A DNA stretch of 64,000 nucleotides from Sphingopyxis sp. PAMC25046 (lineage in GTDB: Bacteria; Pseudomonadota; Alphaproteobacteria; Sphingomonadales; Sphingomonadaceae): assembly GCF_004795895.1 (NCBI RefSeq), contig NZ_CP039250.1:4255501-4319500 (forward strand). The letters are read 5' to 3'. The notes under the pieces are model-generated. The model was not told the DNA's origin. It searched no databases and was given only the letters and a program-made list of their open reading frames with translations. Positions 4,822-40,035 of the stretch are shown here, piece by piece (the first letter of the stretch is position 1; each line of letters begins with the position of its first letter). Position numbers and translations under genes: made by a program.

Positions 4822-4897
4822 GTCGCCCCCGCGAAGGCGGGGGCCGCCGTCGGCCTTGCGCTATCTCGCCAGCGGCCCCCGCCTTCGCGGGGGCGAC
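4822..4897. repeat. Sphingomonad-type intergenic palindrome, copy 2
   Basis: The 24-base arms 4822-4845 and 4874-4897 are perfect reverse complements with a 28-base spacer. The sequence is nearly identical to the element at 1955-2042. It lies between a plus-strand small gene and the 3' end of minus-strand cpaF, so it could act as a two-way transcript end. That role is inference. Confidence 0.88.
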
Positions 4898-25692: not shown

Positions 25693-26120
25693 TCGTCGTT
25701 CAGCAAAGCCAGCTTGACCCGCGCGGTACCGCTGCGCTGCATGCCGATTTCGCGCGCAGCGGCGTGGCTGACGTCGATCACGCGGCCGTGAGCGAAGGGG
25801 CCGCGGTCGTTGATGCGGACGATCACACTATCGCCGGTGGTCATGTTGGTGACGCGCACCTTGCTGCCGAAGGGCAGCGTGCGGTGCGCCGCGGTCAGTT
25901 GGCCGGGATCGAAGCGTTCGCCGCTCGCGGTGCGGTTGCCGGCAAGCTCGTTGCCGTAATAGCTCGCCATGCCGCCGTCGATTTCGGTTTCCATGTCGGC
26001 GGCGTCGGCAAGCGGAATCGCGCTGGCCGCGACGGCGGGAATGGCAGCGGCGTCACTGTCCTGTGCGGCGGCCGATGCAACGAGCATCAGCGGCATCACC
26101 ATGGTTACAAGAGCCCGCAT
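25689..26120 (-). CDS. rlpA: RlpA-family septal ring lytic transglycosylase-like protein
   Basis: Small exported protein of 143 residues: a signal peptide (MRALVTMVMPLMLVASAAA) and a double-psi beta-barrel. The barrel's family blocks are ASYYGNELAGNRTASGERFD, LTAAHRTLPFGSKVRVTN, SVIVRINDRGPFAHGRVIDV and the SHAAAREIGM helix. RlpA proteins cleave denuded glycan strands at the septum. This short form has no SPOR domain, so septal targeting is not assured. The start at 26120 has GGGAGGATGCC upstream. It ends overlapping the Imm5-like gene. Confidence 0.88.
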   Translation of the reverse strand: MRALVTMVMPLMLVASAAAQDSDAAAIPAVAASAIPLADAADMETEIDGGMASYYGNELAGNRTASGERFDPGQLTAAHRTLPFGSKVRVTNMTTGDSVIVRINDRGPFAHGRVIDVSHAAAREIGMQRSGTARVKLALLNDD

Positions 26121-26251
26121 GGCATCCTCCCTTTTCGGTGAGAGCGCCAAAAGCAGCGGCCGCCTGCCGAAACAAGCCGCCGCGCGTTAAACTGAATATA
26201 TTTCGCGTTCGAAAGTGCGTTCCGGTGGGTTTTTAAGGAACCAAACCGAAA

Positions 26252-28891
<2,640 letters not shown>

Positions 28892-28904
28892 CTAGTTTCG
28901 GCGC

Positions 28905-29339
28905 ATGAAACAAGGTCTCGTTTTCCCCCTCGCCTCGATCCTCCTCACCTCGCTCGCCGCGTGCAGCCAGCCCGCGCCACCCGCCGACAATGCCCCGGAG
29001 CTTCCGGGTGAACCGATCGCGACGCGCGCGGTGATGATCGGCACCGAGGGGCCGAGCCTGCCCGCCTGTTCGAGCATCAGCCGCGTCAAATCGGGCGGCA
29101 CCGACGTCTATTGGGCACCGAACGAGACGCGCGCGGTGAAGGCGAAGCTTGCCGGCGGCGCGAATGTGTCGCTGTGCGAAGCGGCCGAGAATGACGCCTG
29201 GTTCGGCGTCGTCTTCGCCGCGCCCGGCACCGACCCCGACATGTGCGGCGTCGGCAAGTCGGTTTCCAACGCCCGTGAATATCAGGGCCCGTGCCGCTGG
29301 GGCTGGATCAAGGGCGGGACCGTCCAGCTGGGCGGCTGA
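28905..29339 (+). CDS. Lipoprotein of unknown function (SH3-like segment)
   Basis: Protein of 144 residues with a lipoprotein signal (LLTSLAAC, Cys near residue 20). A Pro-rich linker is followed by a small domain with four Cys residues. The segment DVYWAPNETRAVKAKL with SLCEAAENDAWFGVVF and CRWGWIKGGTVQL is reminiscent of a bacterial SH3 domain. No family was recognised firmly. It is divergent from gyrB, with about 106 bases between the starts. Confidence 0.7.
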   Translation: MKQGLVFPLASILLTSLAACSQPAPPADNAPELPGEPIATRAVMIGTEGPSLPACSSISRVKSGGTDVYWAPNETRAVKAKLAGGANVSLCEAAENDAWFGVVFAAPGTDPDMCGVGKSVSNAREYQGPCRWGWIKGGTVQLGG

Positions 29340-29349
29340 TTCCAGCCAT

Positions 29350-29850
29350 CTAGCGGCAATCCTCGATCACGCGGCCGATTTCGGACTGCACCGGCAGCGT
29401 CAACGCGCCGCCGCCCGGGGCTTCGAGCGCGAAGCGGCCGCGGCTGAACGCGATGCGGTCGAGCCGCGGGTCGCGGCTCGGCAGGTTCGCGCTGCCGTCG
29501 TCGAAGCGGATCGCATCGGTGCCGGCGCTGGTGCGCAGGCTGACATTGCCATCGAGCGCCGAGGTCATGCGGATGCCCCCGCCGCTGCACGCCATCGTCA
29601 GCAAGGCGTTGGCGCTACCCGTCGGCACGAAAGCGGCGGTGCGGCTGGCGGTGTCGTAACGCCACGCGCCGCGATCGATCGCGCGATCCTCCCAGCCCGC
29701 GGTCGGCGTCGGCAGCGGGGCCGGCACCGGTGCGGGCGCGACCGGCCTCGGCGCAGGCGGCGGAGCCTCAGGCTGGGGGATCGCGGCGCAGCTCGCGATG
29801 ACCAGCGTCAGCGTCGCTGCCGCCGCATAACGGAACCCGGACATTTGCAT
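29350..29850 (-). CDS. Lipoprotein of unknown function (last gene of the MoxR operon)
   Basis: Protein of about 166 residues with a signal sequence and lipobox-like VIASC, then a Pro-rich spacer (PQPEAPPPAPRPVAPAPVP). A beta-rich domain of about 100 residues follows, containing two Cys (MACSGG and the C-terminal EDCR). No known family. Either ATG 29850 or ATG 29844 could start it; a GAGG lies just before the second. It begins within a few bases of the nitroreductase stop and so belongs to the eight-gene operon. It converges on the 28905 lipoprotein gene, whose domain also has Cys residues near its end. Confidence 0.7.
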   Translation of the reverse strand: MQMSGFRYAAAATLTLVIASCAAIPQPEAPPPAPRPVAPAPVPAPLPTPTAGWEDRAIDRGAWRYDTASRTAAFVPTGSANALLTMACSGGGIRMTSALDGNVSLRTSAGTDAIRFDDGSANLPSRDPRLDRIAFSRGRFALEAPGGGALTLPVQSEIGRVIEDCR

Positions 29851-29852
29851 CC

Positions 29853-30539
29853 TCAAAACCCCTGCCAGTCGATCACTTCATCCAGCGGCGCGCGCGGCAC
29901 CGGCCACTGGTTCACCGCCGCTTCGGTGTCGGCATAGCCGATCGCTAGCCCGGTGAACAAAATCTGTTCGTCACCCAACCCGAGCATGCGGCGGATCGTT
30001 GCGCCATACATCGCCCAGCATTCCTGCGGGCAGCTTGCGAGGCCATGTTCGACGAGCAGCAGCATCACCGATTGCAGCCACATCCCCATGTCCGACCATT
30101 GCGGCGGCCCCATGATGCGCGAGCAATGGAGAAAAAGCATCACCGGTGCGCCGAACCCCCGGTAATTGTCCATGAACCGAGCGAGTCGTCCCGCCTTGTC
30201 CTCGCGCGGGATGCCGAGCGACGCATAAAGCGCCTCGCCGACCCCGAAGCGGCGGTCGGTCCAGGGTTCGGTCAGCGCGCGGGGATAGATATCATATTCG
30301 GGCTCATGTCCCTCGCGCCCCATCGCGATCCGGCTCGCGACGGCATCCTTCACCGCCTGCCAGGGTTCGCCGGTGAGTAGCGTCACCTGCCACGGCTGCA
30401 GATTGCCGCCCGAGGGCGCGCGCTGCGCCGCCACGAAAATCTCCTCAAGCAGCGCCGGATCGACCGGCCGATCGGTAAAGGCGCGCACCGAACGACGCAC
30501 GTGGAGGGCCTCGGTAACGCTTATGTCAGTCGCTGGCAT
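29853..30539 (-). CDS. Nitroreductase family protein
   Basis: FMN-dependent nitroreductase-fold protein of 228 residues. The N-terminal block reads ALHVRRSVRAFTDRPVDPAL and is followed by AAQRAPSGGNLQPWQVTLL, the conserved FMN-phosphate region. Near the C-terminus GLASCPQECWAMYGATIRRM and LFTGLAIGYAD are the family's second flavin segment. Its substrate is not predictable. It overlaps the RDD gene by 14 bases and the lipoprotein gene follows almost directly, so it is part of the operon. Confidence 0.9.
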   Translation of the reverse strand: MPATDISVTEALHVRRSVRAFTDRPVDPALLEEIFVAAQRAPSGGNLQPWQVTLLTGEPWQAVKDAVASRIAMGREGHEPEYDIYPRALTEPWTDRRFGVGEALYASLGIPREDKAGRLARFMDNYRGFGAPVMLFLHCSRIMGPPQWSDMGMWLQSVMLLLVEHGLASCPQECWAMYGATIRRMLGLGDEQILFTGLAIGYADTEAAVNQWPVPRAPLDEVIDWQGF

Positions 30540-31392
30540 ATTTATCCTCTCGCCTTTTGCCGAACAGCAGCTTGCGTTCGAGCCGGGCTTTCAATTGCCG
30601 GTAATAGGAAAGCAGGAAGACGTCATCCTCTTCGGCGACAGGGCGCCCGATCTTGGCGCGGATCGTATCGGCGACCTCGCGCATCGCGCGCGCATCGCGG
30701 CCGCGCAGCACGCGTTCAAGCTCCTGCAGTTCGAAAATGCCATAGACCGCGAGCTCGGCCTCGGTGAACGTCATCGCGCCCCCTGCCGCATCGGTCGCGA
30801 TATCGGCGTCGAGCTTGACGCGCTGCGCCATCACCACCCACGTGCCCGCGATCAGATCGCCCATCCGCATCCGATCGCGGTTGAAGAACAGGAAGAGACT
30901 CAAAGTCAGCGACCAGAGCACGCCCGCGAGAATGATCCACCCCGACACCATATCCTCCGCGGCGCCCGCCCCGAGCATCATAAGCGGCAGGAACAGCTCG
31001 AGCTCGCGGATTAGGTTGCGCGCCACAACCGCGTCGGCGGTCAGGCGGCCGCCGTCGCGCGCGACGACGCGGATGCCCATCAGGCGCTTGCCCGGCGTCG
31101 CCGCGCGCGAGCCGAGTTCGAACCCGATGAACCAGAAGGTACGCAGCAGGAAGGAACCGAGCAGCCAGATCGCCACCGCGACGTCCGATTGCGAGGCGAG
31201 GCCTGCCCACAACACCAGAAGAAAGAAAAGAAGGAGCGCGATCTGGATCAGTATCAGGTCGACAAGCAACGCGCCGAAGCGCAGCCCCGCGCTCGCGATC
31301 CTGAGTTCGAGATCGACGCCTTCGGGGGTCACGAATTGGCGAATCTTCTTCGCGCTGGCGGCGCGCTGTTTCGCGTTGGCGAGGGCGGTCAT
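30526..31392 (-). CDS. RDD family membrane protein
   Basis: Integral membrane protein of 288 residues with an RDD domain. The signature Arg/Asp positions lie in LRFGALLVDLILIQIALLLF and FELGSRAATPGKRLMGIRV, with MRMGDLIAGTWVV at the end of the domain. There are about four to five hydrophobic segments (about 40-60, 75-95, 130-150, 160-180). A soluble C-terminal part of about 90 residues is helical and charged. The family's function is unclear in general. ATG 31392 overlaps the SpoIIM stop as ATGA. Confidence 0.9.
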   Translation of the reverse strand: MTALANAKQRAASAKKIRQFVTPEGVDLELRIASAGLRFGALLVDLILIQIALLLFFLLVLWAGLASQSDVAVAIWLLGSFLLRTFWFIGFELGSRAATPGKRLMGIRVVARDGGRLTADAVVARNLIRELELFLPLMMLGAGAAEDMVSGWIILAGVLWSLTLSLFLFFNRDRMRMGDLIAGTWVVMAQRVKLDADIATDAAGGAMTFTEAELAVYGIFELQELERVLRGRDARAMREVADTIRAKIGRPVAEEDDVFLLSYYRQLKARLERKLLFGKRREDKYASD

Positions 31393-32426
31393 GTCACATC
31401 CTCGCGCCGCGGAATGTAATAATAGGCGAGCCAGAAGAGCAGCATCAGCGTGCCCGTCGCATAGCGCAGCATCGTGTCGGTGATCAGCTGACGCCCGAAA
31501 CCTTCGAGCAGCCCGGCCGCGAACAGCATCAGGATGACGCCGACCATCACCTTGCCCGCGGTGCGCCCCGCCTGCGACGCCGCCTGCAACCGCCCGCGCG
31601 CGCCGGGAAAGACGACCGCCGTCCCGATCCGCAGGCCCGCGGCGCCCGACAAGGCGGCGGCGAATAGTTCGGTGGTGCCGTGGATGAAAAGCCAGCCGCC
31701 GAAATCGAAGCCAAGCCCCTTGGCGGAAAAGACCGCCATCATCGCGCCGAGCCCGATCCCCTGATAATATTCGAGCATCAGCGTCGGAATGCCGAAGGCG
31801 AAGCCGAGCGCGAAGGAGAGGATCGATACCTGGCTGTTATGCGTGAACAAATAGGTCGCGAAGACGTGCAGCCCGCTTTCGCCCTTCTCCGCCGCCTTGC
31901 CGTGCCCGAGCGTTGTCTGGAGATATTCGGCGGTCGCGCGCGGGTCGCGCCCGCCCGACATTTCCTCTGGAACGAAGTTGAAATACCATTCGGGATTGCT
32001 CGACACGAGCGAGTAGCTGGTCAGCGCGCCGAGCAGGATGACGAGCGCGATGATCAGCGTCTCCTTCCATACCGAGCGCACCGCGGCGGGCCAGTCGTAG
32101 AGGAAGAAGCGGCGAAGGCGGTTCCAGCGGCTTTCGCGCACGCCATAGACGAGGAAATAGCCGCGGATCGACAGTGCCTCGAGATGATCGAGCAACGCCC
32201 TGTCGAGGCTCGTCGCGCGCGCGATCGACAAGGACGACAGCGTCGCGCGATAGAAGATCGGGAGCTGGAGCAGCTCGTCGCTGGTCAGTGCCTTCGCACC
32301 CTTCTTCTCGAGCTTGGTGAGCAGAAGGTCGAAGGCGATCCAGTCGGCCTCGCGCTCGGCGCGGAAACGGCTCGTCGAGAAGCTCGGCGCATCGATGGTC
32401 CTTGCGGGGGCGGCGGGCGGGATCAC
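31389..32426 (-). CDS. Stage II sporulation protein M (SpoIIM) family membrane protein
   Basis: Membrane protein of 345 residues related to SpoIIM, which in Bacillus works in a peptidoglycan-degrading complex; this organism does not sporulate. Features: a soluble N-terminal helical part to about residue 95, a first membrane segment (TLIIALVILLGALTSYSLV), a periplasmic loop, then FATYLFTHNSQVSILSFALG with FGIPTLMLEYYQGIGLGAMM. GWLFIHGTTELFAAALSGAAG and a last C-terminal membrane segment follow. It is located between the DUF58 and RDD genes, the usual position in MoxR operons. GTG 32426 makes a 4-base overlap. Confidence 0.9.
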   Translation of the reverse strand: MIPPAAPARTIDAPSFSTSRFRAEREADWIAFDLLLTKLEKKGAKALTSDELLQLPIFYRATLSSLSIARATSLDRALLDHLEALSIRGYFLVYGVRESRWNRLRRFFLYDWPAAVRSVWKETLIIALVILLGALTSYSLVSSNPEWYFNFVPEEMSGGRDPRATAEYLQTTLGHGKAAEKGESGLHVFATYLFTHNSQVSILSFALGFAFGIPTLMLEYYQGIGLGAMMAVFSAKGLGFDFGGWLFIHGTTELFAAALSGAAGLRIGTAVVFPGARGRLQAASQAGRTAGKVMVGVILMLFAAGLLEGFGRQLITDTMLRYATGTLMLLFWLAYYYIPRREDVT

Positions 32427-33739
32427 AGGCTGCCCTGTCTTTTGATGCCGAGATAGGCCTCGACCGCGCTCGCCCCCATCGCGTCCGCGGGAACTTCGAT
32501 GACATCGGCACCGAGGCGCTGGAGCCGCGCGATCACCAGCTGCCGGTCGCGCAGCATCGCTGCAGCGACGTTCGACCGCGTGACGTCGGCGCCGGTCTCG
32601 GGCCGCCGCCGCTCCTCGCTCTCGACCTCTTCGTCGCGGATCACGACGAACAGCAGCCGGTGTTTCTGAACGAGCCGCCCCGCTGCGCGAATCATCAGGT
32701 CGGCGCTCGTCGCGTCGGTGAATTCGGTGAAGAGAATGATCAGCGAGCGGCGGTTGAGCTGCGCGCTCAGCGTGGTCAGCGCGAGGGTGAAATTGCTCTC
32801 GACATGCGCATAGTCGATCAGGCTCGCGGCGCGCTGCAACGCAGGGAAGTCCTGCGTGTGCATATAAGCGGGAGTCAGCGCCTGCGGCTTGGCAGCAAAG
32901 GAGAAGAAGCTGATCCGGTCATTCAGCTTGAGCCCCACATAGGCGAGCAGCAGCGCCGCCGACGCCGCGCGGTCGACGCGCGGCATGCCGCCGACGGGCT
33001 CGGCCATCGTCCGCCCGCTGTCGATCGCGAGGACGACGCGATTGTCGCGCTCTACGCGATACTCCTTGGCGAGCAGCTTGACGTGGCGCGCCGAGGCGTT
33101 CCAGTCGATCGCGCGCCGGTCCATTCCCGGCTGATATTCGGCGAGCGCTTCGAACTCGGTGCCTTCGCCGCGGAAGCGTTGCTGGCGGAGGCCGAACCAG
33201 CTGTTGCGCTGGAACAGCCGGCTGCCCTCGTCGGTCACCGCGCGCAAGCTGGGCACGACGTTGATTGCACCGCCGATCTCGAATTTGCGTTGTTTCCAGA
33301 CGAGCCCGAGCGGCCCCGTCCAGCGGAGCCACAGCGCCTCGACCAGAGCCTGCCCACGCCGAGAGGCGGTGAGCGAGAGTGTGCGGACGAGCACGTCACC
33401 CCTGCTCGCGCGGCGCATATCGCCCGCGAGGCGCCCGCCTTCGGCGAGCCTTCCATCGAGCGCGAGCGCGAGTTCTGCGCGCGGCGGGACACCGCGACCG
33501 CTCGCGGCCAACGACAGGTCGAAGGGATCGCCGACCCCGATCTGATGCGGGAAACGCGCGTCGAGCGTCAGGTGGCGCGGATTCGCGCCGGCGACGGTGT
33601 CGAGGATCAGGCAAGCAAGGATCACGCCGATCCAGCCGGCCGCGACGAGCCAAAGCTCGGGCCGGATCAGCCCGAGCGCGAGCGCCATCGGGGCGCCTGC
33701 GAGCAGCATGTAGATCGCGCGGCGGGTGGGGTAGATCAC
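32423..33739 (-). CDS. DUF58 domain protein
   Basis: Protein of 438 residues with two N-terminal membrane segments (about 8-50), a beta-rich cytosolic part, and the DUF58 core [20 protein letters not shown]. That core leads into [11 protein letters not shown], which resembles the metal-ion-adhesion start of a VWA domain (DxSxxM). DUF58 proteins are regular partners of MoxR AAA+ ATPases, and the VWA-like segment may take the role of the missing stand-alone VWA proteins. The GTG start overlaps the MoxR stop as GTGA, and the stop overlaps SpoIIM. Confidence 0.92.
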
Positions 33740-34701
33740 CGCGGGACTTCCTCGCGTTCGAGCAAGGCCGCGACGACCTGCTCGATGCCCCGGCCCTCGA
33801 TCTCAGCCGCCGCCGACAGGATGACCCGGTGGCGAAGCACGCCCGCGGCGAGGCGCTGGACGTCGTCAGGGATCACATAGTCACGCCCGTCGAGCGCCGC
33901 CGCCGCGCACGCCGCGCGCGCGAGCAGGGTCGCGGCGCGCGGGGACGCGCCGCATTCGAGGTCGGCACTCTCGCGCGTCGCGCGGACGAGGCGGACGATA
34001 TAATCGACGATCTCTTCGGCGAGGCGCACCGCCGCGATCGTATCGATCGCCTCGCCGATCGCCTTCGCATCGGCGACCTGCGTCACCCCGAAATCGCCGA
34101 CCGCCGGGCTCTTGAAGCGCCCACCATGGTCGGCGACGATGCGACGTTCCTCGTCGGCGTCGGGATAATCGACGACGAGCTTGAACAGGAAGCGGTCGAG
34201 CTGCGCTTCGGGCAACGGATAGACGCCCTGCTGTTCGATCGGATTCTGCGTCGCGAGCACGGTGAAGCGCGGGCTCATCGCGTGCGGCTCGCCATTGATC
34301 GTCACATGCCGCTCCTGCATCGCCTCGAGCAGCGCGGCCTGCGTTTTCGGCGGCGTGCGGTTGATTTCGTCGGCGAGGAGGAGTTCGGTGAAAATCGGCC
34401 CCTTGGTCAGCGTAAAACTCGACGTCTGGAAGTTGAACAGGTTCGACCCCAAAATGTCGCCCGGCATCAGGTCGGGGGTGAACTGGATGCGGCCGAAATC
34501 GAGCCCCGTCGCGCGCGCGAACGCCTGCGCGAGCAGCGTCTTCGCGGTTCCTGGCGGACCTTCGAGCAGCACGTGTCCGCCCGCGAGCAGCGCGATCGTC
34601 ACCATGCGGGTGAGCGGCCCCTGCCCGAAAACGGCCTTGGCGACCTCGCCCTCGATCGCGGCACCGAGCGCCTGAACGCTTTCGACGGGATTAGCTGTCA
34701 C
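33736..34701 (-). CDS. MoxR-family AAA+ ATPase
   Basis: AAA+ chaperone-like ATPase of 321 residues. Walker [16 protein letters not shown], Walker [19 protein letters not shown], and sensor region [20 protein letters not shown] with DRFLFKL are all present, followed by the small helical domain [13 protein letters not shown]. MoxR proteins are thought to mature or insert partner complexes. GTG 34701 gives the usual short N-terminus and lies inside the end of the DUF4350 gene. It is the enzyme core of the operon. Confidence 0.94.
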
Positions 34702-35929
34702 GGAGTAGGTCCTTCCTGATGTCGTGCAGCGCCTGTGCGTCTGCAAGGAATTCATGCGTGTTGCGCGAAAGCGGCAGCCGCCGCGCGAGCGACGAGAAAA
34801 GGTCGCTGCCTTTCCTCAAATGCCGGTCGATCCACGCGTCGGTTTCGGCGTCGTCGAGCCCGGTGGGGGCGTGCAGGCGCCGTGCGATTGCTATGCGCTG
34901 GCTCTTCACATAAGCATCGGCGCCGTCGAGTTCACGGCGTGCCTGCTTGATGAGGTCTGCGCTGTTCGCGATCAGCGCCGCCTTCGACACCGGGATCGCG
35001 CGGCCGGGCTTCAACGCCGGACCGAAGCGCATCCACGCCTGCCACAGCGCGAGCAGCCCGGCCGCGATCAGGCACAAGGTGATTCCGATGAACGGCGGAA
35101 CGAAGGCGAAACGCAGCAGCGAACGCTGCCCGCCGAAGCCGTTGAGCGTCAGATCGAAGGCAAGGCCGTCGGCATCGGCATAGTCGGCGATGGCGTCGAT
35201 CAGCATCGCGCCGCCGACCGCCCGATCGCGCGAGGCGAAGGCGAGATTGTTGATGAGGTCGGGGTCGGCAAGAATGTAGAGATCGCGGTCGCCGACCTGC
35301 GCCAGCACCGCCCCGCCGCCCGGCGCGGCGATCAGCTTTTCGAGATTGTCGCCCGAAATCGTCTGCACATTGGTCGGCAGCCAGGCAGTGAAGCTGTGGC
35401 CCGCAAGATGCGCGGGCATTTCCTGCGCCTTGCCCGGCGCGGCCTTGATCGCAATCTTGCCGAAATGCCCGGGCGGAAGCATGGCGTCGCGCGGCTTGAC
35501 CGGAAAGCCGACGCTGACCCAGCCGGGCTTCTCCGTCTGGCCGGGCACCGCCATCGTTTGCCATTTGGGCAGTATGATCAGCGCTGGCGCGCCGATCTGC
35601 GCGTCGAGCAGCTCGGCGATCTCGGTCGCGCGGGTGCGATGCGTCGGCGTGATGATCAGCAGCGGCTCATATTCTTCGTAGCGCGTCGTCTCGACCCTCC
35701 GCCGCAGTTCGACCTCGGCGCCGGCGCGCTCGGCGAGGTCGACGATCGCGGCATAACCCGGCGCAGCCTTCGACAGCGCGTGGCCGCCGCCGTCATTGCC
35801 GCTGCTGAGCTGCGGCCCCAGCGCGATCAGCGCCCAGAGCGCGATGAAGGCGACCACACCGATCGCGACGACGCCCGCAATCAGGCGGGGGTTGAAGCCA
35901 TGGTCGCTGGCGACGGCCGCGTCGCTCAT
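34691..35929 (-). CDS. DUF4350 domain membrane protein
   Basis: Protein of 412 residues with one N-terminal membrane segment (about 15-38, [20 protein letters not shown]). A large soluble region follows with DUF4350-like features ([62 protein letters not shown]). A second membrane segment lies near 280-300, and the C-terminal tail is helical and charged. The family recurs beside MoxR/DUF58 genes. It overlaps DUF4129 by 4 bases (ATGA) and MoxR by 11 bases. Confidence 0.85.
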
Positions 35930-36624
35930 GCGCGCGCCCAGTTCTTCGGCACCGTCAGCTCGGCATAGGCGACGCGGCATTGCTCCCACGCCGCGGCGTC
36001 GATCGATCGTCCGCCGAACAGGCTGATCTCGACCGCACGCGCGATGCGGCTGAACGCGCCGCGCGCGACCGACGGCAGGTCGTGTGCATCGGCAAGGTCG
36101 CGCGAGGTCATCGCGGGTTTGACGAGCCCGGGGCGGCGCCCTTCGATATCCTCGACGCTGCGATGGAGGAGCAGATGCACCGCTTCGGCGAAGCGCCCCT
36201 CGGCGGCGAGCGCATCGGCCTCGGCGAGCAGCGCGCGCGCGGCGCCGGCCTCCGCCTGCCCGATGGGATCGTCGGCATCCGCGTCGCCGCGCCTGCGGCC
36301 AAAGCGCAGATTGTCGACCCACCGCGCAAAGGCGGGGACGAAATGGTAAAGGAGGAACAGCAGGATCAGCGCGATCCCGATCCACATCAGCGGCTTCGCC
36401 GCGGGGGCGCTCCACTCGAAAAAATCGCCGATCGCACGCAGCAGCGACTTCAGCCACTCGGGCGTCGGCGGCGGCGGGGGCGGCGGCGGGGGAAAGGCGG
36501 TCTGAATCTCGCCGCCCGCGATCGTCTGGCTATAACCCGGATCGACGAGTTCGGGGTCGAGCAGCCACCCCTGAGCCGAGGTGTCGGCCGCAGCCGACGT
36601 CTGGGCGATCCACATGGATATCAT
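35926..36624 (-). CDS. DUF4129 domain membrane protein
   Basis: First gene of the operon: 232 residues, an N-terminal Pro-run (PPPPPPPPTP near residues 45-54), one membrane segment (about 78-96, PLMWIGIALILLFLLYHFVP). A cytosolic helical DUF4129 domain follows (AGAARALLAEADALAAEGRF; HLLLHRSVEDIEGRRPG). Similar domains end actinobacterial and sphingomonad MoxR operons. ATG 36624 was taken; ATG 36615 is a near alternative. The operon promoter should lie in 36625-36790, shared with the divergent E1 gene; no motif there was assigned. Confidence 0.85.
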   Translation of the reverse strand: MISMWIAQTSAAADTSAQGWLLDPELVDPGYSQTIAGGEIQTAFPPPPPPPPPTPEWLKSLLRAIGDFFEWSAPAAKPLMWIGIALILLFLLYHFVPAFARWVDNLRFGRRRGDADADDPIGQAEAGAARALLAEADALAAEGRFAEAVHLLLHRSVEDIEGRRPGLVKPAMTSRDLADAHDLPSVARGAFSRIARAVEISLFGGRSIDAAAWEQCRVAYAELTVPKNWARA

Positions 36625-36790
36625 GTTGAAAAGATGATCTCGCCCCGCTCGCTCATTGCCGATCTTGGTAGCGCGAGCGTGCTCTGCAAGGCAAGAGATG
36701 CTTGCGCGCCGAACTGCCCCGTTCTAGCGCGCGGAAAAATCGGCCGGTTCGTTACAATGGAAACTGCCGGCCGCGCGACAGGAGAGACAA

Positions 36791-38992
36791 GTGGACGCGG
36801 CGCAGGCGGTACATGAAAAATTCCTTGGCGCGCTGGCGGGCGGCAGACTGCCCGGCCGCGCCGATGCACCCGACCCCGCCGCGGCCGGCCTGTCGCGCGG
36901 CGAGGCCACCGACATTTTCCTGTCGCAGCTGACAAGCCGCCAGATGGACCGACTCTCGCGCCACCTACAGGCGCGCGGCGAAGGTTTCTACACGATCGGC
37001 TCGTCGGGGCACGAGGGCAATGCGGCGGTCGCGGCGGCGCTACGCGTCACCGACATGGCGTTCCTCCACTATCGCTCGAACGCGTTTCAGCTCCACCGCG
37101 CACGCCAGCTTCCAGGGGGGACGCCGACGTGGGACATGCTGCTGAGCTTCGCGGCGTCGTCGGAGGATCCGATTTCCGGCGGTCGGCACAAGGTGATCGG
37201 GTCGAAGCCGCTCGCCATCCCGCCGCAAACCTCGACGATCGCCTCGCATTTGCCGAAAGCGGTCGGCGCCGCCTTCTCGATCGGCATCGCGCGCCGCCTC
37301 GGCATGACGGGGCTGCCGCTCCCCGACGATGCGGTCGTGCTCACCAGCTTCGGCGATGCGTCGGCGAACCATTCGACCGCGCAGGGCGCGTTCAATACCG
37401 CGGGCTGGGCGGCGTTTCAGGGGTCGCCGATGCCGCTGATCTTCCTTTGCGAGGATAATGGCATCGGCATTTCGACGCGCACGCCGACCGGCTGGATCGA
37501 GGCGCAGTTCCGCCATCGCGCGGGGCTCCACTACATCAAATGCGACGGCACCGACCTCGTATCGGCCTATGCTGGCGCCGCCGAGGCGGCCGATTATGCG
37601 CGGCGCACCCGCAAGCCCGTGTTCCTCCACATGGGCACCGTCCGCCTCTATGGCCACGCCGGTTCGGACGTGCAGGGCGCCTATCTTCCCAAGGCGCTGA
37701 TCGAGGCCGACGAGGCGCGCGACCCGCTGCTCGCGGGCGCCGCGCTGATGGCCGAACATGGCTGGATGAGCGCGGCCGAGATCGCCGAAGCCTATGAAGA
37801 GATCGGCGCCACGCTCGCGCGGCAGGCCGAAGCGGCGATCCTGCGTCCGAAGATCACGACCACCGCGCATGTGATGGACAGCCTGATCCCGCCGAAGCGC
37901 GAAGTCGCGCCGCGCAACACGCCGTCGGACGAGGACCGGGGGGCGATGTTCGGCAGCGATGCGCAGGCGATGGACAAGCCGATGCACATGGCGCGGCTTT
38001 TGAGTTGGGCGCTCGCCGACCTGATGCTCGCGCACAAGGAAATCGCCGTGATGGGCGAGGATGTCGGACCGAAAGGCGGTGTCTACAACGTCACCGCGAA
38101 GCTCCACCAGCGTTTCGGATCGGCGCGAGTGATCAATACGCTACTCGACGAACAGGCAATCCTCGGGCTGGCGATCGGCATGGCGCACAATGGCTTTATC
38201 CCGATGCCCGAGATCCAGTTCCTCGCCTATGTCCACAATGCCGAAGACCAGATACGCGGCGAGGCGGCGACATTGAGCTTCTTCTCGAACGGTCAGTACA
38301 CCAATCCGATGGTCATCCGCATCGCGGGGCTGGGTTACCAGAAAGGCTTCGGCGGCCATTTCCACAACGACAACAGCCTCGCGGTCTTCCGCGACATCCC
38401 CGGCGTCATCCTTGCGGTGCCGTCGAACGGCCGCGACGCGGTCCACATGCTGCGCGAGTGCGTGCGGCTGGCGCGCGAGGAGCAGCGCGTGATCGTCTTC
38501 GTCGAACCGATCGCGCTCTACATGACGCGCGACCTCCATGAAGAAGGCGACGGCCTGTGGACCAGCATATACGAGGCGCCGGGCGAAGGTGCGCCGATCC
38601 ACCTCGGCGACGTCGGCGTCCACGGCGACGGCAGCGACCTCGCGATCGTCACTTACGGCAATGGCTATTATCTCTCGCGGCAGGCCGAGAAACTGCTCGC
38701 CGAAGAAGGCGTCAAGGCGCGCGTGATCGACCTCCGCTGGCTCGGACCGGTCGACGAGGCGAAGCTGGTGGCGGCCGTCGGCGCCGCGGAACTCATCCTG
38801 ATCGTCGACGAATGCCGCATCACCGGCTCGCAGAGCGAGGCGCTGATGGCGACCTTCGTCGAGCGGACTCCCGACAAGAAGCTGGCGCGCATCGCCGCCG
38901 ACGACAGCTTCATCCCCTTGGGCAAGGCGGCGACGCTAACCTTGCCGAGCCGCGATTCCATCTATGCCGCCGCGAAGGAGCTGCTCGCATGA
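36791..38992 (+). CDS. Fused E1 alpha/beta 2-oxo acid dehydrogenase
   Basis: Thiamine-diphosphate enzyme of 733 residues joining E1 alpha (about 1-380) and E1 beta (about 395-733), as in branched-chain or acetoin-type 2-oxo acid dehydrogenase E1. Alpha part: FYTIGSSGHEGNAAVAAAL, the ThDP motif region FGDASANHSTAQGAFNTAG (188-206; Asn202), and LCEDNGIGIS. Beta part: MGEDVGPKGGVYNVTAKLHQ, LLDEQAILGLAIGMAHNGF, and PEIQFLAYVHNAEDQI. The start is GTG with GGAGAG upstream. No E2 or E3 gene is present. The stop overlaps the next ATG (ATGA), so it is tightly coupled to the malonyltransferase-like gene. Confidence 0.92.
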   Translation: MDAAQAVHEKFLGALAGGRLPGRADAPDPAAAGLSRGEATDIFLSQLTSRQMDRLSRHLQARGEGFYTIGSSGHEGNAAVAAALRVTDMAFLHYRSNAFQLHRARQLPGGTPTWDMLLSFAASSEDPISGGRHKVIGSKPLAIPPQTSTIASHLPKAVGAAFSIGIARRLGMTGLPLPDDAVVLTSFGDASANHSTAQGAFNTAGWAAFQGSPMPLIFLCEDNGIGISTRTPTGWIEAQFRHRAGLHYIKCDGTDLVSAYAGAAEAADYARRTRKPVFLHMGTVRLYGHAGSDVQGAYLPKALIEADEARDPLLAGAALMAEHGWMSAAEIAEAYEEIGATLARQAEAAILRPKITTTAHVMDSLIPPKREVAPRNTPSDEDRGAMFGSDAQAMDKPMHMARLLSWALADLMLAHKEIAVMGEDVGPKGGVYNVTAKLHQRFGSARVINTLLDEQAILGLAIGMAHNGFIPMPEIQFLAYVHNAEDQIRGEAATLSFFSNGQYTNPMVIRIAGLGYQKGFGGHFHNDNSLAVFRDIPGVILAVPSNGRDAVHMLRECVRLAREEQRVIVFVEPIALYMTRDLHEEGDGLWTSIYEAPGEGAPIHLGDVGVHGDGSDLAIVTYGNGYYLSRQAEKLLAEEGVKARVIDLRWLGPVDEAKLVAAVGAAELILIVDECRITGSQSEALMATFVERTPDKKLARIAADDSFIPLGKAATLTLPSRDSIYAAAKELLA

Positions 38993-40035
38993 CCGCGCGC
39001 AAGACCGCGATCGTCGTCGCCCCCGGCCGCGGTACCTATGGCAAGGGCGAACTCGGCAGCATCGCGCGGTTGCACGGCGCGCCTTTCGGCGCGCTGATCG
39101 CGAACTTCGACGCACAGCGCCACGACCGCGGCCAGCCAACGGTAACCGAACTAGACGGCGCCGACCGCTTCAGCGTCGGGGTACATATGCGCGGCGACGT
39201 CGCAGCGCCGCTGATCTACACCGCAACCGCGCTCGATTATCTGAGCATCGACCGCGACAAATATGACATCGTCGCGGCGCTCGGCAATTCGATGGGCTGG
39301 TACAGCGCGCTCGCGCTCGGCGGTGCGGTGTCGATCGAGGACGGCTTCCGCATATCGAACGCGATGGGGCTCAACAGCCAGACGCACGGTCCCGGAGGGC
39401 AGATTTTACTGCAAGTGGCCGACGAGGACTGGCACCCCCTCCCCGGCCTGCGCGACCGTCTGCTCGACCTTGTCGCGGCCATCGCGGCGCGCCCCGGCCA
39501 CGACCTCGCGCTCTCGATCGACCTCGCAGGCATGCTCGTCCTCGCGGGCAATGAGGAAGGTCTCGCTGCGCTGCTCGCCGAGGCGCCGCCGACCCCCGGC
39601 CGCGATCCCTTGCGCCTCGCGGGCCACGGCCCCTTCCACACCCCGCTGATGTTCGGCAGTTCGGAGAAGGCGAAGGCCGAGCTGCCCGTCGCGCTTTTCG
39701 GCCGCCCCGACATTCCGATGGTCGACGGCCGCGGCCACATCTGGCGCCGCTTCTCCAGCGACCCCGCCGAGACTTGGGACTATAGTTTCGGCCACCAGAT
39801 CCTCGCGCCTTATGATTTCGCACGGTCGGTGCAGGTCGCGGTCAAGGAGTATGCGCCCGACGCGATCATCCTGCCCGGCCCCGGCGACACGCTCGGCGGC
39901 GCGATCGCGCAATCGCTGATCGGCATCGGCTGGCAGGGCATGACAAGCAAGACTGATTTCATGGCCCGGCAGGCGTCGGACCCGATCCTGCTCTCGATGG
40001 GCCGCGCCGAGCAGCGGGGGCTGATTACCGGATAG
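38989..40035 (+). CDS. ACP S-malonyltransferase-like protein
   Basis: Protein of 348 residues resembling the FabD acyltransferase fold. The nucleophile elbow GNSMGWYSALALGG has Ser101, matching FabD's GHSLGEYSAL, and a later GHGPFHTPLM supplies the His (217). The FabD Arg that binds the malonyl carboxylate is not obvious (the segment reads GFRISNAMG), so a non-malonyl acyl group is possible. A second domain starts near residue 240. It is translationally coupled to the fused E1. Its role with the dehydrogenase is unknown. A terminator follows 4 bases after the stop. Confidence 0.72.
   Translation: MTARKTAIVVAPGRGTYGKGELGSIARLHGAPFGALIANFDAQRHDRGQPTVTELDGADRFSVGVHMRGDVAAPLIYTATALDYLSIDRDKYDIVAALGNSMGWYSALALGGAVSIEDGFRISNAMGLNSQTHGPGGQILLQVADEDWHPLPGLRDRLLDLVAAIAARPGHDLALSIDLAGMLVLAGNEEGLAALLAEAPPTPGRDPLRLAGHGPFHTPLMFGSSEKAKAELPVALFGRPDIPMVDGRGHIWRRFSSDPAETWDYSFGHQILAPYDFARSVQVAVKEYAPDAIILPGPGDTLGGAIAQSLIGIGWQGMTSKTDFMARQASDPILLSMGRAEQRGLITG

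Follow-up and report, generated by a model that had tools for sequence, protein, structure and literature searches.

Which genes of a tightly packed MoxR locus form a working unit, and what might that unit do? The question is raised by eight minus-strand genes (positions 36624 to 29350), read from reading frames and a Pfam scan, in a 64,000-nucleotide stretch of the genome of Sphingopyxis sp. PAMC25046 (NZ_CP039250.1, positions 4,255,501 to 4,319,500), hereafter the window. Seven of the eight have Pfam matches, namely DUF4129, DUF4350, MoxR (AAA_3 with AAA_lid_2), DUF58, SpoIIM, RDD and nitroreductase, and the eighth gene is predicted to encode a small lipoprotein. A first-pass annotation had treated all eight as one unit, in which the nitroreductase and the lipoprotein were additions to the machine. 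The comparisons reported here point to a unit of six genes. With somewhat better than even confidence, we consider the locus to be a six-gene MoxR operon with two lineage-specific tail genes, encoding a MoxR-driven membrane remodeller whose output is divided at the MoxR/DUF58 junction.

A six-gene core is kept together across genera

In the window the core reads DUF4129-DUF4350-MoxR-DUF58-SpoIIM-RDD on one strand. Related loci were searched by comparing their reading frames with the window proteins. The sample comprised 48 named loci found with the window SpoIIM protein, most of them titled Sphingopyxis; another 24 Sphingopyxis stretches (23 entered the counts; L214 was incomplete and was left out of the core, tail and junction counts); 61 loci from outside the genus (family, 57; class, four); and two deep-branching Sphingopyxis loci. 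All six core genes were found on one strand in 58 of the 61 loci outside Sphingopyxis, and the three exceptions (L125, L158 and L168), which lack the upstream genes, lie at contig ends. Within Sphingopyxis the set was complete in 42 of 48 named loci and in all 23 added loci, the six incomplete named loci again being contig ends. The DUF58 match of L126 and the SpoIIM match of L166 are fragmented, and presence in these counts does not equate to an intact gene in every locus.

Among genomes, SpoIIM was found in 57 of 60 and DUF58 in 75 of 80 from Sphingopyxis. Across the class, SpoIIM was detected in 6 of 142 genomes, counting the window's own; the Pfam model found it in seven of the 142, six of them over the cut-off. 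Because all six genes are kept together while SpoIIM occurs in about half of the family genomes, the core is, judged from these loci, conserved as a block but patchy in its presence.

Two loci departed from this pattern in ways that we attribute to the assemblies. Broken genes in L100/L174 (G312) were considered as a biological loss, and this was rejected, gyrB and the divergent gene being broken in the same stretch; with several genes including gyrB in two frames, the breaks are likely to be sequence errors. In L062 (G321:C49) core genes lie on both strands, with two equal DUF58 matches on opposite strands of the contig, and this locus is probably a palindromic assembly artefact.

The eight genes are tightly packed, as the first-pass annotation had described: from gene 1 to gene 7, successive overlaps are 4, 11, 4, 4, 4 and 14 bases. 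Identical overlaps were seen again throughout Sphingopyxis, and because of this recurrence the packing is not due to chance. The form of the last junction depends on the lipoprotein start: TTG at 29856 would give a 4-base overlap, and ATG at 29850 a 2-base gap. An ATG start was found in 57 of the 64 Sphingopyxis loci scored, including the window, and ATG at 29850 is the more likely choice. A promoter scan returned no promoter-like site, and a terminator scan returned seven terminator-like sites against a shuffle mean of 5.3.

The nitroreductase and lipoprotein genes are riders of the genus

A nitroreductase gene adjoins RDD in none of the 61 loci outside Sphingopyxis. Within the genus, the nitroreductase gene (29853 to 30539, minus strand) does so by a strict rule in 59 of 63 evaluable loci. 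The rule misses L078 and L079, where the RDD alignment is short and the usual 14-base overlap is present, and in L100 the gene is present but split over two frames. This leaves as the sole Sphingopyxis exception L088, a contig of a metagenome-assembled genome with 2.4 kb of sequence after RDD and no nitroreductase. The RDD/nitroreductase spacing has a median of -14 bases, which is exceeded by more than 50 bases in just one of the 65 evaluable loci. The lipoprotein gene (29350 to 29856 from TTG, or from 29850 from ATG, minus strand) encodes a lipobox, IASC, recognized by eye, and has no Pfam or NCBIfam match at E 0.1. Among 58 evaluable Sphingopyxis loci, 57 have it in the adjacent position (L212 does not), and it is adjacent in neither of the deep-branching loci L171 and L172, both of which carry the nitroreductase. 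L171, L172 and L212, all with no lipoprotein in the slot, branch deepest in the tree; the simplest history would then be core first, nitroreductase second and lipoprotein third, making the lipoprotein a rider of crown Sphingopyxis.

Several observations bear on whether the tail depends on the core. NfnB-like homologues of the nitroreductase at 45% identity or more, a threshold of our choosing, were counted outside Sphingopyxis among the matches listed, and occurred in 28 of 57 core-bearing and 33 of 60 core-lacking family genomes (Fisher p 0.58). In one Sphingopyxis genome that is 100% complete (G303), SpoIIM and DUF58 are absent, and nitroreductase, lipoprotein, convergent gene and gyrB still lie side by side; the remaining core genes were sought there within a 20-kb stretch. 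The ratio of median nonsynonymous to median synonymous substitution rates (dN/dS) was 0.21 and 0.27 for the two riders, compared with 0.08 to 0.33 for the core genes, values that suggest purifying selection on both riders.

In other genera the slot after RDD is occupied by a same-strand gene within 100 bases in 27 of 63 loci (genes called from GC content at third codon positions; L171 and L172 included). Ten downstream proteins chosen for a Pfam scan were beta-lactamase-like (3), GNAT (3), fatty-acid desaturase, GST, hydroxyisobutyrate dehydrogenase-like and thiolase; L129, L146 and L163 are among the loci outside the genus whose slot holds such genes. Clustering of mechanically called open reading frames gave no common downstream gene, and five loci each for nitroreductase and lipoprotein elsewhere had little in common as a shared home. 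With the nitroreductase never adjoining RDD in the 61 loci from other genera, and its homologues among the matches listed not associated with the core, we rejected nitroreductase and lipoprotein as core parts. The loci compared thus show the core as a block, with the tail outside it beyond Sphingopyxis. The first-pass annotation had made conservation of the last two genes in relatives the test of their role: between genera they are not conserved, the slot holding other genes, whereas within Sphingopyxis they are nearly fixed. Because of this near fixation they are, on the evidence of these neighbourhoods, long-standing genus-level riders and do not vary freely within Sphingopyxis.

Downstream, a small convergent gene (28905 to 29339, plus strand) with no Pfam or NCBIfam match at E 0.1 sits between the lipoprotein gene and gyrB in those Sphingopyxis loci that are long enough, with few exceptions.

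The nitroreductase is of NfnB type

The nitroreductase (PF00881, E 1e-24) gives full-length matches of 426 to 422 bits to PDB 7dp0, 7dp1 and 7dp2 (7dp0, E 4e-127). We take 7dp0 to be NfnB of Sphingopyxis sp. HMH; apart from agreement of residues, this link between entry and paper is presumed. Residues 87, 88, 97, 100 and 101 of the 7dp0 chain agree with the numbering in the NfnB paper. When eleven NfnB positions were compared, ten, including Tyr88, agreed in the window and were invariant in 43 sequences (the window and 42 relatives). The exception is Asp97 of NfnB, which is Thr in the window, and position 97 varies among the 43 sequences. The nitroreductase domain, the full-length similarity and the residues of the wall all place the protein in the NfnB/PnbA group (PnbA subgroup). 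By these sequence comparisons it is an NfnB-type enzyme, close kin of the HMH reductase of dinitroaniline herbicides. The text of the NfnB paper does not mention an operon or genome. The distribution described above suggests that the herbicide-reducing enzyme is probably an old chromosomal Sphingopyxis gene and not a recent acquisition.

Self-complementary inserts recur at the MoxR/DUF58 junction

In the window the MoxR/DUF58 junction (33736 to 33739, minus strand) is a 4-base overlap, GTGA, with no insert, and the end of MoxR carries GAGGAAG ahead of the native GTG start of DUF58. In 19 of 66 Sphingopyxis operons, 55 to 261 bases instead separate the MoxR stop from the DUF58 start (L068, L077, L078, L080, L081, L083-L086, L102, L107, L193, L195, L197, L201, L202, L207, L208 and L213). 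At the other six junctions only one gap in 403 exceeded the median by more than 50 bases (L212, RDD to nitroreductase), a difference with a Fisher p of 1e-16 when related species are treated as independent. These counts leave out L062 and L100 and include the window, L171 and L172 with the genus; junctions were not evaluable where an alignment ended more than 25 residues from the gene end, and L098 was excluded from the inserts, the gap there being DUF58 coding sequence.

Eighteen of the 19 inserts are strongly self-complementary (z -3.5 to -13.4, from 30 simple letter shuffles). The exception, the 55-base insert of L213 (z -0.9), is possibly a remnant of the first cluster. By sequence similarity the inserts fall into six clusters of 10, 3, 2, 2, 1 and 1 members, which, independent of any tree, would imply at least five or six insertion events. 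On a tree of four core genes, 17 gains are needed if losses are barred, and 14 changes when presence and absence are scored. The tree neighbours L080 and L081 have inserts from separate clusters. The window, itself uninserted, has as its nearest relative on the tree L208, which carries one. Because several inserts (L193, L201, L207 and L208) are in genomes of one to five contigs, assembly error is an unlikely source. Searches of five inserted loci and of window positions 26000 to 39000 gave no Rfam match.

The inserts are accompanied by a change of start codon. Scoring the codon nearest the expected place, DUF58 begins with ATG in all 19 inserted operons, compared with 5 of 49 uninserted operons, the other 44 having GTG or TTG. 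A Shine-Dalgarno-like motif precedes DUF58 in 14 of the 19 inserted operons, a count made without a control. Insert-like sequences were also found at 23 other places in 136 loci: 12 between the lipoprotein and convergent genes, four beyond gyrB, three directly ahead of DUF58 in loci that were not counted, and four elsewhere after lipoprotein, nitroreductase or RDD. Taken together, these alignments show self-complementary DNA gained repeatedly at the MoxR/DUF58 junction and practically nowhere else inside Sphingopyxis operons.

Two further observations concern similar or neighbouring sequence. In L170 (G125), from another family of the class, about 2.1 kb lies between MoxR and DUF58, and at positions 4824 to 4895 of the window 72 bases are 75% identical to the L207 junction insert.

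Proteins encoded by the core

MoxR (33736 to 34701, minus strand) matches PF07726 (E 3e-61) and PF17863 (E 4.7e-21), and this AAA_3 core with an AAA_lid_2 places it in the MoxR AAA+ family. A Walker A motif, GPPGTAKT, and DEIN were read from the sequence, and by hydropathy the protein is soluble. Its best match among solved structures is PDB 2r44 (E 4e-71), an entry titled uncharacterized protein that is presumably a MoxR-type protein; RavA also matches (3nbx, E 1.4e-6). The start is GTG at 34701, with a second in-frame start, ATG, at 34755; GTG was the start in 63 of 65 scored Sphingopyxis loci, among them the window, in a count biased by a query that itself began at GTG. A single MoxR-type AAA_3 match in the genome exceeds the Pfam cut-off, as does a single DUF58 the cut-off of its family, and both are located in this operon.

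The DUF58 protein (32423 to 33739, minus strand; PF01882, E 6.1e-22) has two N-terminal transmembrane hydropathy peaks and a VWA-like domain whose VWA_2 match (E 1.7e-4) is below the family cut-off. The first-pass annotation had credited it with a DxSxxM motif. The site reads DSGRTM, and D240, G242 and M245 are invariant in 11 aligned sequences, the third position always being G; as aligned, the VWA site is degenerate, D-x-G-x-x-M. That annotation had also stated that a stand-alone VWA protein was absent. This holds for the operon, since no VWA match besides the DUF58 protein was found by Pfam among the eight genes and the convergent neighbour, but three further VWA_2 matches occur elsewhere in the genome.

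The remaining core proteins are all predicted to be membrane proteins. The DUF4129 protein (35926 to 36624, minus strand; PF13559, E 1.3e-6) has a C-terminal DUF4129 domain and one predicted transmembrane helix (hydropathy peak 82-100). The DUF4350 protein (34691 to 35929, minus strand) is predicted to comprise a transmembrane helix, a putative class I GATase-like (GIFT/GldG-type) domain, a second transmembrane helix and a C-terminal helical part. In its model (mean predicted local distance difference test, pLDDT, 72.2) the domain, which has no cysteine, resembles GATase-like domains including those of IFT52 and oligosaccharyltransferase subunits. SpoIIM (31389 to 32426, minus strand; PF01944, E 5.8e-31) and RDD (30526 to 31392, minus strand; PF06271, E 1.5e-19) each have several hydropathy peaks. 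By domain family the former is related to sporulation SpoIIM, whose partners in engulfment are SpoIID and SpoIIP (the DMP complex). The AlphaFold2 model of SpoIIM is all helical (mean pLDDT 88.6) and had no PDB match at E 0.001 or better. A second fold comparison matched chiefly the N-terminal helices with no clear relative, and single chains of ABC, Mla and Mce permeases appeared in the fold search at non-significant ranks.

A proposed mechanism

These features are most consistent with a MoxR-driven remodeller of a SpoIIM-RDD membrane body in which DUF58 acts as the adaptor. MoxR would be the cytoplasmic AAA+ motor, docked at the membrane by the two-helix tether and VWA-like domain of DUF58 together with DUF4129. 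DUF4350 would contribute a GldG/IFT52-like, non-enzymatic binding domain that is probably periplasmic, and SpoIIM and RDD would form the membrane body. Remodelling driven by ATP could then assemble, open or dismantle this body in a role of envelope maintenance; the membrane-related function proposed by the first-pass annotation is accepted here as probable, and the quality-control role that it named as possible. The MoxR/DUF58 joint would divide the output of the operon, with DUF4129, DUF4350 and MoxR made at a different level from DUF58, SpoIIM and RDD. On this view, which the inserts suggest, selection or drift has acted on how much of the first three proteins is made relative to the last three. 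The nitroreductase would be an NfnB-like housekeeping or detoxifying enzyme hitch-hiking on the transcript.

Several points weigh against this proposal. SpoIIM was found in only 59 of 119 family genomes, marking the core as dispensable. Outside Sphingopyxis the MoxR/DUF58 junction is less distinct, with large gaps in 3 of 59 loci compared with 3 of 58 at DUF58/SpoIIM, 1 of 56 at DUF4129/DUF4350 and none at the other two junctions; self-complementary gaps there are those of L147 and L165 at MoxR/DUF58 and of L138 at DUF58/SpoIIM. The DUF4350 model is of middling quality, and the placement of its domain in the periplasm comes from hydropathy only. The Rhizobium operon for which envelope phenotypes are described (see below) belongs to another MoxR operon type, and the open literature yielded no expression, interaction or phenotype data on this operon in any sphingomonad. 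The junction pattern itself could reflect tolerance or target choice, and not useful uncoupling.

This last point concerns the more specific idea that, on about 17 occasions within a single genus, unrelated hairpin-forming elements were recruited to serve as a stoichiometry joint, breaking the translational coupling of MoxR to DUF58, with DUF58 on an ATG of its own, and setting the MoxR half against the membrane half. We put it forward tentatively, and our own belief leans against it. That the junction merely tolerates uncoupling, or that the elements target the MoxR stop codon, has close to an even chance of being correct. Insert-like sequences do occur in ordinary spacers (12 of the 23 between lipoprotein and convergent gene, four beyond gyrB), three more lie just upstream of DUF58 in uncounted loci, and the native 4-base overlap is the same size as neighbouring ones. 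However, tolerance or targeting does not readily account for the convergence on one point of six sequence clusters that may well move by different systems, for the ATG start in every inserted operon, or for a single large gap among 403 at the other junctions.

The composition and activity of the machine can likewise be read in other ways. The nearly fixed RDD/nitroreductase overlap and the low dN/dS ratios of both riders would be expected if nitroreductase and lipoprotein functioned within a Sphingopyxis MoxR system for envelope quality control. Yet the nitroreductase never lies beside the core in the 61 other loci, its homologues among the matches listed are not associated with the core across 117 genomes, G303 retains both riders in the absence of SpoIIM and DUF58, and the lipoprotein is missing from the slot in the deepest branches; we regard an eight-part machine as improbable. 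It is also unlikely that SpoIIM and RDD form an ABC-2-like channel, with DUF4350 as a GldG-like receptor and MoxR in place of the ABC ATPase. The GATase/GIFT-like fold suggested for DUF4350 would fit such a transporter, and a passage of PMC5898192 notes that an archaeal DUF4350 protein resembles GldG and predicts a system for secretion or membrane remodelling that involves MoxR-type ATPases, but the confident SpoIIM model found no PDB match at the threshold used and its second comparison covered mainly N-terminal helices.

Defining the unit as six genes keeps the nitroreductase and the lipoprotein from misleading functional work. It also assigns the NfnB-type enzyme, which has been studied as a protein, its native setting in the genome: in nearly all Sphingopyxis its gene closes a membrane operon. 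From the recurrent inserts follows a prediction of which ratio within the machine matters, and sister species with and without an insert offer natural experiments. If the stoichiometry joint is real, it would represent convergent regulatory evolution by repeats, and MoxR dosage would be the quantity that adaptation tunes in the machine.

Comparison with known systems

The nearest counterpart to the core is mycobacterial. A passage of PMC8191103 lists Rv3691 (DUF4350), Rv3692 (MoxR), Rv3693 (DUF58), Rv3694c (SpoIIM in Mycobacterium chelonae) and Rv3695 (RDD) consecutively, in the same order as in the window, and their counterparts appear together in its table of lowered expression. Because neighbouring genes outside the set fall as well, this table does not show co-transcription. 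In PMC4694148, DUF58 and MoxR genes stand close together in a SigF table for M. smegmatis. These sets differ from the window in belonging to another phylum and in naming five of the six parts, and the likeness is drawn from gene listings. MoxR-SpoIIM-RDD sets are therefore present in at least two phyla, in keeping with the statement of the first-pass annotation that the MoxR-DUF58-SpoIIM-RDD order recurs across phyla with its function unresolved. PMC5898192 similarly describes, in a passage, SpoIIM homologues of several bacteria encoded with a vWA protein and a COG0714 AAA+ ATPase, but that passage does not mention DUF4129, RDD or the tail genes.

Bat-type and RL3499-RL3502-type operons also place MoxR next to DUF58 and membrane proteins, and Rhizobium MoxR-operon mutants have changes in envelope and morphology (PMC5700661). 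In contrast to these, the window has no stand-alone VWA gene among its eight genes, and hence no such gene beside MoxR and DUF58 as in the Bat type, and it has SpoIIM, RDD, DUF4350 and DUF4129.

Hairpins between genes of one operon are thought to set protein ratios, according to PMC8219983, PMC4423207 and PMC5927463, and MalE is given as an example of intergenic hairpin control in PMC4942690. The Sphingopyxis inserts share with such repetitive extragenic palindromic (REP) and stem-loop operons a strong intergenic hairpin. They differ in that the hairpins at this one junction stem from several unrelated sequences and from many separate gains within a genus. In the open literature, we found no paper joining MoxR with extragenic palindromic sequences and no study of the function of the six-gene set. 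The core was thus already known as a gene set, though not as a function. Three things appear new, as far as searched: the make-up of the sphingomonad locus as six core genes plus a tail, the native genomic position of the NfnB-type gene, and the inserts that recur at the MoxR/DUF58 junction.

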